DNA of 64,000 nucleotides from contig NZ_VTWT01000007.1 of assembly GCF_008727925.1 (NCBI RefSeq), forward strand, positions 124,001-188,000, in the 5' to 3' direction. The translations under genes were made by a program, and so were the position numbers. The DNA comes from Adhaeribacter soli. GTDB taxonomy: Bacteria > Bacteroidota > Bacteroidia > Cytophagales > Hymenobacteraceae. Of this stretch, positions 6,569 to 9,474 are shown piece by piece (position 1 is the first letter of the stretch; every line of letters starts with the position of its first letter). The notes beneath the pieces are model-generated. The model did not search any database. It saw nothing but the letters and a program-made list of their open reading frames with translations, and was not told the origin of the DNA.

Positions 6569-7705
6569 TTACTCAGTATCCTTCATTTCAAGGCCTAAAT
6601 CAGGCTTTTCATCTTTAGCTACGTGCAGCGTGGTAGTCGGGAAGGCAAAGCGGGCGCCGTGCTTTTCTACAATTTCCACGATTTTAAAATTGATCTCTTG
6701 CTTCGTGTCGATGTATTCGTCCCAATCCATGGTATCTACGAAGTACTGCAGCATAATGTCCTTGGAGCTCGGGCCCAGGTTCATGAAGCGTACGCGGCCT
6801 TCGTCGTTGGTGCGCGGGTGGTCCAGAATGTACTGCTGAATCTCGGTAACGATGTTCTTTATCTGTTCGGAAGAAGTGCTGTAAGTCAGGTGAATGTCGA
6901 ATTTGGCACGCCGGAAGGTTCGTAAAGTCAGGTTGTCCAGCGGCTTATCGATCATGTTTTTGTTCGGTACCGTTACATAGCTTTTTTCTAATGTTCTGAT
7001 ACGCGTACTCCGGAATCCGATTTTTTCCACCACGCCCGTAATTTCGCCCACCTGCACCAGATCGCCCACAATAAAAGGCTGATCCAGGAAAATGGTAAAT
7101 GAAGCCAGCAGGTTCTCTAAACTTTCCTTGGCCGCAAAAGCCAGCGCCAGACCGCCAATTCCCAAACCAGCTACAATCTTGCTTACCCGCTGGTCGAAAA
7201 CAAAAGAAATAATGAACAGAAACCCGATAATGACCACAATTACCTTTCCGAAATCTTTAAAGAAGGGAACCAGCTGATCGTCGAGCTTGGAAAGCGTTTT
7301 TTCGGCCCGCTTCATGAAGATCAGGCCAATAAAGTCTACCAGGCGCAGGGCCACCCAGGTAAGCGAAACAATGAGGAATGCGCGGTAAACCCGCAGGAAA
7401 ATGCCTTTCCAGTAATAAACTTCCTTCGGCGGTAATCCCAGTTTCGGAAAGTTCAGCCTATCGAAGGCAATGTAAATGAAGAACAGGAACGTAAGGAATT
7501 CGAGCGGTTGAATTAGCAGGCGCTTGAAATCGAATTTGGTAACGTCCTGGGAGTATTTCTTCAGTAGCCGGAACATAAGTTCCGACAAAAGCTTGGAAAC
7601 AAAGGTTTTAAACAAATAACCAAACAGCATGACGCCGGCGAACCAGAAATAATTCTCGAGAGTGTTGTTCAGGAATTCGGTTCTCAGTAAGGCGCGTAAG
7701 TCCAT
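6569..7705 (-). CDS. MscS-family mechanosensitive ion channel, 378 aa
   Basis: About four hydrophobic helices lie in the first 175 residues (near 19-36, 65-85, 105-127 and 150-172). They are followed by the MscS core: the pore-lining helix GLGIGGLALAFAAKESLENL, then the beta domain FIVGDLVQVGEITGVVEKIG and the signature RTLEKSYVTVPN. This architecture is a small-conductance mechanosensitive channel that opens under membrane tension to release solutes during osmotic downshock. It is longer at the N-terminus than E. coli MscS (286 aa) and so is of the multi-helix subtype. The start is ATG 7705. The gene is monocistronic; the hairpin at 7805-7838 separates it from upstream sequence. Confidence 0.9.
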   Translation of the reverse strand: MDLRALLRTEFLNNTLENYFWFAGVMLFGYLFKTFVSKLLSELMFRLLKKYSQDVTKFDFKRLLIQPLEFLTFLFFIYIAFDRLNFPKLGLPPKEVYYWKGIFLRVYRAFLIVSLTWVALRLVDFIGLIFMKRAEKTLSKLDDQLVPFFKDFGKVIVVIIGFLFIISFVFDQRVSKIVAGLGIGGLALAFAAKESLENLLASFTIFLDQPFIVGDLVQVGEITGVVEKIGFRSTRIRTLEKSYVTVPNKNMIDKPLDNLTLRTFRRAKFDIHLTYSTSSEQIKNIVTEIQQYILDHPRTNDEGRVRFMNLGPSSKDIMLQYFVDTMDWDEYIDTKQEINFKIVEIVEKHGARFAFPTTTLHVAKDEKPDLGLEMKDTE

Positions 7706-7804: not shown

Positions 7805-7838
7805 AAAATGTGCCCGAAATTACTTCCGGGCACATTTT
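7805..7838. terminator. Terminator-like hairpin
   Basis: A perfect 12-bp stem (AAAATGTGCCCG with CGGGCACATTTT) closes a 10-base loop, with A- and T-runs at its outer edges. It lies about 100 bp upstream of the mechanosensitive channel gene and could end read-through from the dehydrogenase gene transcribed from the right. Confidence 0.7.
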
Positions 7839-7866
7839 ACGTTTGTACCCCTCCAAAGGCAGGGAT

Positions 7867-8118
7867 GTTTCATTTTAAAAGCGCTGGTCTAAGTTTATAA
7901 CTTTGACCTATATATAACCTGAAGTTTTCAACTTCAGTGAGGCGACAGCCTCAAAAGGAAGTTTGCTCTTTCGGATCTATCGATCCGGAAGCATCCTGTT
8001 GCGGGTTTATTAACCCGCGTGGACCATTTGCAGGCCACAATCCGGGGATCAATAGATCCCCCGCAGGATGTTTTCGGATAAAAATATCCGAAAAAGCTGC
8101 TTTAGTTTAGAATGAAAC
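7867..8118. repeat. Multi-hairpin element with terminal inverted repeats, 252 bp
   Basis: Imperfect inverted ends (GTTTCATT at 7867-7874, AATGAAAC at 8111-8118) bound at least seven successive stem-loops: 7919-7937 (CTGAAGTT-TTC-AACTTCAG), 7938-7953 (TGAGGC-GACA-GCCTCA), 7970-7990 (GGATC core), 8001-8018 (GCGGGTT-TATT-AACCCGC), 8019-8038 (GTGG...CCAC, one bulge), 8044-8061 (GGGGATC-AATA-GATCCCC) and 8071-8094 (10-bp stem, loop AAAA). A further stem CATCCTG (7992-7998) with CAGGATG (8064-8070) would enclose the three central hairpins as a multi-branch junction. CTCCAAAGG occurs directly repeated outside both ends (7851-7859 and 8127-8135). There is no ORF. It may be a non-autonomous mobile element or a structured RNA. 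Confidence 0.7.
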
Positions 8119-8155
8119 GGACCTGTCTCCAAAGGAGGACTTTAAATTTATTTGC

Positions 8156-8240
8156 GTCATTCCGAGCAACGTCGAGGAAACTTATAAAGCCAATATCGAA
8201 ATGCAGCCTCATAAGCTCCCTCGGCTTCGCTCGGGATGAC
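8156..8240. repeat. Dispersed palindromic repeat (GTCATTCCGAGC type)
   Basis: The ends are GTCATTCCGAGC and GCTCGGGATGAC, an inverted repeat matching at 11 of 12 positions. Internal words GAAACTTATA and ATAAGCTCCCTCGG are shared with the repeat at 6290-6417. It lies directly downstream of the dehydrogenase gene's stop codon, so it will be present in the mRNA 3' end. Confidence 0.65.
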
Positions 8241-8247
8241 AACTTCG

Positions 8248-9474
8248 TTACAACAACTGGCTTAACGCAATCTCGAAGGAAGTTTTAGCAATTTCAGTTT
8301 TGTTGCTCTTCTGAGCATAGGTCTTCTTCAGCGCGTTGCCGATAATGGTGGAAATATCGGTGAAAATGGCTTCATCCGTAATTTCCACATTGTCGCCCAT
8401 TAAGTAAGCAAAAACCCGGGCCATGCCGCAGTTCGCAATGAAATCCGGAACTACAGAAACGTTTTGGTCAGCAAATTCGCCGGTTGGGCCAAAGAAGATC
8501 TCCGGATCCTGGAACGGTACGTTCGCGCCGCACGAAATTACTTCCAGACCGTTGTTCATCATGCTTTGTACCTGCTCTTTGGTAACCAATCTTGAAGCCG
8601 CCGCCGGAATAAAGATCTCCGCACCGGTTTTCCAGATCTGCTCGTTTATTTCGGCAAACGATAGCATGTTCGGGGCAAAAAGGGTATTCCCCTGGCGATT
8701 CAGGAACAATTCTTTAACCTCTTCAAAGGAAAAACCTTCCGGGTTCAGCAAGCCGCCGTTGCGGTCTATAATGCCTACAATTTTCGCGCCTTCGGAAGCC
8801 AGATAGTAAGCTGCAGCCGCACCAACGTTGCCCCAGCCTTGGATAATTGCTCGCTTGCCTTTAAATTCGCCACCCCAGATGCTGTAGTAATGACGCACTG
8901 CTTCGGCCACCCCGTAACCCGTGATCATGTCAGCCACGGTGTATTTGCGGGAAATGGAAGGGGTAAATTTGGCGTCTTCAATAACCTTGATAACGCCCTG
9001 GCGCAACTGGCCCACTTTGTTTATTTTCTGAGGTTCGGTGGCATTGAAATGTCCGTTTACCACGCCCTCTTGTGGGTGCCACAGGCCATAATCTTCAGTA
9101 ATCGGAATTACTTCGTGAATTTCATCCACGTTCAGGTCGCCGCCGGTGCCGTAATAGTTTTTCAGCAGCGGGAAAACAGCTTTGTACCAACGCTCAAGCA
9201 CGCCCCGTTTGCGCGGATCGGCCGGATCGAAGTTGATGCCGGATTTGGCGCCGCCAATGGCCGGGCCTGAAACCGTGAATTTCACTTCCATGGTTTTTGC
9301 CAGGCTTTCCACCTCACGTTTATCGAGACCTTTGCGCATGCGGGTTCCGCCGCCGGCTGCCCCACCGCGCAGGGAGTTAATAACTACCCAGCCTTCGGCT
9401 TCGGTTTCGGCATCTTTCCACTCAAAAACGATCTCCGGACGTTTGTTCTCAAATCGGGCAAGTAATTCTTTCAT
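8248..9474 (-). CDS. Glu/Leu/Phe/Val dehydrogenase family protein, 408 aa
   Basis: NAD(P)-dependent oxidative deaminase of the Glu/Leu/Phe/Val dehydrogenase family. The substrate-side motif GGGTRM (residues 41-46), the catalytic lysine in GGAKSGI (Lys77) and the catalytic aspartate in GGDLNVDE (Asp113) are present. The Rossmann domain opens with GWGNVG (213-218). The GGGTRM and GGAKSG forms differ from the classical GDH at 28654 (PYGGAKGG), so this copy may act on another amino acid such as leucine or valine, or be a diverged GDH; the sequence alone does not settle it. The start is ATG 9474. A TATCTTTG box at 9503-9510 on the same strand matches the Bacteroidota -7 consensus. Confidence 0.85.
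   Translation of the reverse strand: MKELLARFENKRPEIVFEWKDAETEAEGWVVINSLRGGAAGGGTRMRKGLDKREVESLAKTMEVKFTVSGPAIGGAKSGINFDPADPRKRGVLERWYKAVFPLLKNYYGTGGDLNVDEIHEVIPITEDYGLWHPQEGVVNGHFNATEPQKINKVGQLRQGVIKVIEDAKFTPSISRKYTVADMITGYGVAEAVRHYYSIWGGEFKGKRAIIQGWGNVGAAAAYYLASEGAKIVGIIDRNGGLLNPEGFSFEEVKELFLNRQGNTLFAPNMLSFAEINEQIWKTGAEIFIPAAASRLVTKEQVQSMMNNGLEVISCGANVPFQDPEIFFGPTGEFADQNVSVVPDFIANCGMARVFAYLMGDNVEITDEAIFTDISTIIGNALKKTYAQKSNKTEIAKTSFEIALSQLL

Follow-up and report, generated by a model that had tools for sequence, protein, structure and literature searches.

A hairpin array in Adhaeribacter soli is a composite of mobile-type repeats, with a right half that is probably a REPIN-type doublet of a RAYT system

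The window considered here is a stretch of 64,000 nucleotides of the Adhaeribacter soli genome. In this window, genes encoding an MscS-type channel (6569-7705) and a Glu/Leu/Phe/Val dehydrogenase (8248-9474), both on the minus strand, flank an intergenic region that harbors a dense array of hairpins at positions 7867-8118. Seven hairpins were identified by fold prediction and confirmed by a check of the letters (Table 1), in agreement with the original prediction of at least seven; a weak eighth hairpin, between the fifth and the sixth, is seen in the predicted fold only. The other elements described from the sequence are also present, i.e., an inner enclosing stem (CATCCTG at 7992-7998 and CAGGATG at 8064-8070) and imperfect inverted ends (7857-7879 and 8106-8128, 78% complementary), and no ORF of 80 aa or more overlaps the array. 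The predicted fold energy of the plus strand as RNA is -114.7 kcal/mol, compared to a mean of -58.6 kcal/mol (sd 4.96) for shuffled sequences (z -11.3), while for the minus strand z is -9.2. On either strand none of 200 shuffles was as stable, i.e., the comparison with shuffled sequence that had been proposed as a check rules out chance folding.

Table 1. Positions of the repeat components in the window
Feature	Positions	Strand	Description and basis
Left inverted end	7851-7879	+	Cap CTCCAAAGG, then CAGGGATGTTTCATTTTAAA; inverted repeat, related copies bear the same ends
Family A repeat	7883-7953	+	GCT and three hairpins (7886-7908, 7919-7937, 7938-7953); copies in own genome, Rufibacter, Sabulibacter, Adhaeribacter
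Family B module, REPIN-like	7965-8097		133 nt, two inverted GCT-tagged two-hairpin units; covariance-model matches, covariation, pairing
Family B left unit	7965-8019	+	GCT 7965-7967, hairpin 7968-7991, linker with CATCCTG, hairpin 8000-8019
Family B right unit	8042-8097	-	GCT (AGC 8095-8097 on the plus strand), hairpin 8071-8094, linker with CAGGATG on the plus strand, hairpin 8042-8063
Right inverted end	8106-8141	-	TTTAGAATGAAAC ... CTCCAAAGG ... GGACT; inverted repeat and letter check

When positions 7840-8140 were used to search the own genome (4.97 Mb, 16 contigs), at least 68 matching pieces were obtained, with 40 of 90 candidates scored at first look; many genomic copies, another proposed check, are thus found. 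The stronger pieces mostly match one half of the query, either the left (to ~7959) or the right (from ~7961), and each half is found elsewhere in the genome with another partner, which identifies the window copy as a mosaic. The array was originally viewed as one element of 252 bp, but it is instead a patchwork of separate dispersed mobile-type repeat families and is not unique. The left family is referred to as A and the right family as B (with variants B'), while C denotes repeats that have the same architecture as B with other stem words (L020, L030, L040). The B module of the window is 96% identical to the B copy at L004 and 79% identical to the B' copy at L019. A search of PLSDB for plasmid copies gave no match.

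The composite is located between the 3' end of the dehydrogenase gene and a conserved terminator-like hairpin (7805-7838). In a genome of the same genus (G001) the genes on both sides of the orthologous site are ~85% identical to those of the window and the terminator-like hairpin is 97.6% identical over 42 bases, but apart from this hairpin the intergenic sequences are different. The G001 region contains none of the array's seven hairpins and carries instead a remnant resembling a related inverted element and another repeat. The comparison, which had been suggested as a search for an empty site, consequently shows absence of the array but not a clean empty site. A second inverted repeat of the window (8156-8240; GTCATTCCGAG...CTCGGGATGAC) is found between the composite and the dehydrogenase gene, with matches to parts of it at several places in G001.

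These data also bear on the idea that the array is a structured non-coding RNA or a 3' UTR element that is kept for a cellular function. Such a function would be compatible with the very stable fold, the paired changes between copies (see below) and the position between the dehydrogenase stop codon and the terminator-like hairpin. It is nevertheless highly improbable when considering the absence of the array from the orthologous G001 site, the many dispersed copies with different halves, the link to a RAYT clade discussed below, and the outcome of an Rfam search, where two sub-threshold matches were obtained, neither of them on the array and none near the gathering score.

The right half of the array is built from a recurring unit composed of GCT, a ~10-bp stem closed by a 3-6-nt loop, a linker that is mostly 7-10 nt long and a ~8-bp stem. 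A scan for GCT followed by two hairpins identified the same layout in copies of B, B' and C as well as beside RAYT genes; it also returned family A and about ten unrelated matches. Two units that face each other define a module, with a length of 133 nt in B and of 120-122 nt in 12 of the 13 C-type modules caught. The segment at 7965-8097 has the anatomy of a REPIN, with two inverted two-hairpin units that each start with GCT. The 13 C-type modules were caught in 24 loci with an edge pattern in which the GCT and AG[CT] ends were imposed, such that the alignment is silent on the letters of the tag (at L267 the pattern ran 3 nt past the AGC). Their flanks are unconserved, with at most 1.1 bits per column, and the same is true of the eight modules that lack a CTTAAG-type flanking repeat (at most 1.0 bits per column).

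Each hairpin was originally described as having its own stem word. This description holds within the window copy, but comparison of copies assigns hairpins 4-7 to two aligned positions, at each of which the hairpins have diverged while their changes remain paired from copy to copy. Covariation was evaluated in a gapless MAFFT alignment of 21 units. From the 34 aligned units 13 were left out. Shorter loops displaced the second hairpin from the register in ten (L014, three of L148 and six of L154), and the other three differed slightly in length (L020 minus, L032 plus and L040 plus). The fraction of paired cells in the 21 units was 97.4% (81.8% in shuffles), the number of cells changed on both sides was 68 (23.9 in shuffles) and the covariation score was 0.497 (0.204 in shuffles); for each of these measures 0 of 500 shuffles were as high, counts that are not readable as probabilities because the unit sequences are related. 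The compensatory changes that had been proposed as a check are seen in the 68 doubly changed cells. The shuffles were not exceeded in the number of pairs with a change on both sides (9 compared to 7.8, where 65 of 500 shuffles reach 9) or in the number of further pair types (17 compared to 20.5). When the partner was slid by one to three columns, pairing decreased to 55% or less.

A covariance model of the unit (R1) was applied to several genomes with 150 candidates scored in each (150 of 3067 in the own genome). Among these candidates, at least 139 matches were obtained in the own genome, at least 45 in G011, at least 17 in G012, at least 16 in G002 and at least 7 in the same-genus G001, while G003 gave one and G006 none. 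The sole full-length matches in the window are those at 7965-8019 on the plus strand (76.4 bits) and 8043-8097 on the minus strand (77 bits). Among the 120 own-genome matches listed, 98 stand as pairs of a plus unit followed by a minus unit, which corresponds to 49 modules, and in 46 of these the units are separated by 10 nt (26 modules), 11 nt (2) or 23 nt (18), with three odd gaps. Accordingly, the two inverted palindromic units at a set spacing and the many dispersed copies by which a REPIN is defined are both found here, the former in the 98 paired matches and the latter in the at least 139 unit matches of the own genome. The GTAG or CGTC foot tag of the described REP superfamilies (PMC3733652) is absent, and the units start with GCT.

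The own genome harbors seven genes for Y1 transposases; two of them match IS200 transposases in size and five match RAYTs, and all of the five exceed the NCBIfam cut-off for REP-associated tyrosine transposase (NF047646). Three of the five (L154, L156 and L157) are flanked by units at a distance of at most 70 bp on both sides. At the remaining two (L152 and L158) no unit was found and other repeats flank both genes. A Y1 match was obtained in 66 of 80 genomes of the bacterial family, and R1 was run on 52 Y1 loci of relatives, chosen by hand and not at random, in addition to the first 12 loci. A tree was constructed from 58 proteins of 62 Y1 loci (L153 and L198 are without a protein, and at L175 and L219 it is shorter than 140 aa). 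In this tree, the bootstrap of which was not fully settled and some rows of which have long branches, a single clade (support 100/98) comprises the 14 RAYTs with a unit match at most 119 bp away, while none of the other 44 has a unit match nearby. Among the 14, L156 and L157 supplied rows of R1 and the other 12 none.

Units are found on both sides of 6 of the 14 RAYTs of the clade, and full-length matches at 13 of the 14, with L205 being weak (26-35 bits). L218, which was counted as positive, displays a 29-nt partial match that reads as one long, different, single palindrome, and L210 was counted as positive despite a short protein. A marginal match (E 0.05) located more than 1.1 kb from the gene was counted as negative at L181, and L198, with a weak unit match (E 3e-4), was placed in neither group. 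In other words, the co-varying, repeated inverted doublet tracks one RAYT clade, and cognate units flanking a RAYT gene, the third characteristic of REPINs, are found for the unit as a class (14 RAYTs, with a partial match at L218). The search for a RAYT gene flanked by the same ends as the array, which had been suggested together with the original prediction, thus yielded RAYT genes with units of this kind beside them.

Furthermore, the words of the units follow the branches of the clade: GGACAT is found for L156, L194, L179 and L199, GGATTTGCAATCC-like words for L148, L154 and L205, GGATTTATCAATCC-like words for L216, L189 and the far module of L201 (the near unit of L201 has another word) and GGATTNCCTAATCC-like words for L210 and L213. 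A RAYT with B words was not found; the B module of the window is 57-64% identical to the 11 RAYT-side modules compared, and none of the RAYT-side modules of the own genome is of type B. The RAYT of the B subfamily may have been lost from the own genome. RAYTs of other clades (L149, L152, L155, L151 and L158) are flanked by other palindromes, e.g., of the GCTGGCGCGAGCC type beside L149 and L152.

Binding of a host nucleoid protein or another protein is a role often proposed for dispersed intergenic palindromes, and supercoiling and other roles are listed for REPs in PMC3733652. Such a binding array is, however, an even less probable interpretation than a structured RNA, because the uneven distribution, with at least 7 unit matches in G001 compared to at least 139 in the own genome, and the link to a RAYT clade both favor a mobile element. 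A non-autonomous element moved by a REP-type (Y1) transposase was among the originally proposed identities, and for the right half this proposal is well supported as a class; it is not supported for the left half, for which no link to a RAYT is seen.

This left half, family A, has a different distribution. In an exact-pattern scan of one genome per species, covering 84,980 species (a set that may omit the window's own genome), the second hairpin of A and the start of the third were found in 67 stretches, which belong to Rufibacter, Sabulibacter or Adhaeribacter terrigena. A search of these 67 stretches of 8 kb for a RAYT (ORFs of at least 60 codons, six query proteins) gave none, and A sequence adjoins one RAYT only, at L154. 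The GCT start is common among the A copies of the own genome and is not kept in those of Rufibacter. On these grounds family A was set aside as a RAYT repeat and is not classed as a REP. The same-genus A copy L064 resembles, by eye, the Adhaeribacter terrigena copy L104. In Rufibacter (L080-L146) some A repeats are found inside inverted ends, GGGCCGTTAAGTTCTA, that by eye are much like the GGGCCGTTTCATTCT ends of the own genome.

The repeats of the array are enclosed by outer inverted ends, which resemble those of cut-and-paste transposons and belong to a MITE-like element. Among 18 B/B' modules, GTTTCATTCT-type ends (at most 2 mismatches) are found on both sides of 13, on one side of 4 and on neither side of 1, where the chance of such an end per copy is ~6% in the left range and ~2% in the right range. 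The copies of CTCCAAAGG that flank the array had been considered a potential target duplication. This is not supported: the same cap, or its flipped form CCTTTGGAGG, adjoins many related copies, which identifies it as the cap that closes the inverted end. The outer element extends in some fuller copies to ACTGACGTTACGCAAG-like termini, and such a terminus (at most 1 mismatch) is found in 11 of 80 genomes of the bacterial family, compared to one match (in G022) for a reversed control pattern. In G041 two of these termini enclose a 360-aa transposase that is assigned by NCBIfam to the IS701 family (331.7 bits, cut-off 250). Ends of the ACTGATGTTACGC[AG]-like type are seen at both sides in 9 of 12 loci that carry this transposase or a relative of it, including the G041 element; L251, L254 and L255 have one such end each, two of the three at contig edges. 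The window copy has no outer IS701-type terminus that is recognizable by eye, and a search for an IS701-like transposase in the own genome gave no match.

Some C modules are found inside a second, different inverted element (GTAGCGTAGGGTTTAAACCC...), which together with the B modules in the first implies that REPIN-like modules reside in at least two kinds of inverted-end elements. At L271, L274, L276, L278 and L282 the C-type modules are framed by GTAGCGTAGGGTTTAAACCC...CCGTCAACTTAAG, and GTAGCGTAGGGTTTAAACCCTACGCTAC also stands alone as a hairpin. Other palindromic elements, of ~150-220 bp with TCCCCCTTTGGAGG...-type arms, are seen at L043, L044, L052, L053, L055, L057 and L058; several have ACTGACGTTACGCAAG-like termini, and their interiors are unlike A, B or C. 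In addition, palindromes of the CCGTCAGCTAAAGCAGACGG type are repeated intergenically (L047, L048 and L049), some of them just inside a GAGGTTACGCAAG-type terminus.

In view of these ends, the entire structure might be a MITE whose movement depends solely on a DDE transposase that acts at its outer inverted ends, with the hairpins as passive cargo and the RAYTs uninvolved. The 13 of 18 B/B' modules that reside between the same inverted ends, the termini shared by some fuller copies with IS701-family elements and the lack of a RAYT with B words would all fit such a scheme. It would, however, not account for the modules of type C, which share the architecture but lie in other sequence surroundings, for the B/B' module at L011, which is without ends on both sides, or for the tracking of a RAYT clade by the unit across genera, and we consider it unlikely. 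The feature is instead likely to be a composite in which mobile-type repeats are nested, with a right half that represents a non-autonomous doublet of the REPIN type belonging to a RAYT (TnpA-REP, HUH/Y1) system.

By analogy with TnpA-REP and IS200/IS605, a RAYT of the clade would recognize the hairpins with their GCT tag in single-stranded DNA and would move the doublet, by excision or by copying, to other intergenic locations; the work on TnpA-REP and REPINs behind this proposed mobilization is found in PMC8266576 and PMC3116915. Most B copies of the lineage reside in the MITE-like element with long inverted ends and, because some fuller copies carry termini shared with IS701, could also spread passively by the action of a DDE transposase on the outer ends. 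The left half adds a third dispersed repeat, family A. A broader and more tentative view, which we find conceivable but would not favor, is that a RAYT clade, probably of the Hymenobacteraceae, uses as its REP grammar a GCT guide and, after it, two short hairpins, and that its REPINs came to be carried as cargo in DDE-type (IS701) MITEs, such that the nested elements could be moved by transposases of two unrelated chemistries.

The doublet resembles the REPINs, or REP doublets, with RAYTs described in PMC3116915 in being a dispersed inverted doublet of short palindromic units next to RAYT genes, with different units for different RAYTs and compensatory changes. It differs in that the units have two hairpins and start with GCT rather than GTAG, and in that many copies are nested in inverted-end elements. 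Composites from P. putida and P. fluorescens (PMC3733652) also combine degenerate GTAG-1 REP units with unrelated stem-loops in hundreds of copies, but their sequences, phylum and tag are different from those of the array. As for IS701-family elements and MITEs, ACTGACGTTACGCA-like termini bound some of the fuller outer elements as well as the IS701-family elements of relatives, whereas the window copy is without a recognizable terminus or transposase and carries REPIN-type cargo.

According to passages of PMC6006769, TnpA-REP subclass 2.6 (RAYT group 5) of Bacteroidetes is characterized by the motifs NH[LIV]H, WQ and YIH[QN]NP and a length of 179, and its genes are flanked by atypical structures that have copies in the genome and lack GT[AG]G. 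The RAYTs at L154, L156 and L157 (NHLH, WQ and YIHQNP; 181 aa) fit the motifs of this subclass, to which they were assigned by motif alone. In the same passages the flanking structures are called weaker and left undescribed, whereas the present unit has a strong, defined structure. Six genus or group names were looked for in that paper without a match, and in the open-licence literature no paper describing this repeat was found by title or passage. RAYT-associated repeats, REPINs and atypical structures flanking subclass 2.6 genes are already known (for the last, PMC6006769); no description was found in the open-licence literature of the two-hairpin unit with a GCT tag, of its confinement to one clade or of its nesting in inverted-end elements.

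A defined unit, with a tag, two co-varying hairpins and an inverted doublet, makes recognition by subclass 2.6 RAYTs directly testable, and the natural pairs of RAYTs and repeats with different words are usable for specificity swaps. The REPIN-like modules nested in inverted-end elements offer a clear case of small mobile repeats that assemble into composites, and such assembly explains intergenic regions that resemble unexplained hairpin arrays.
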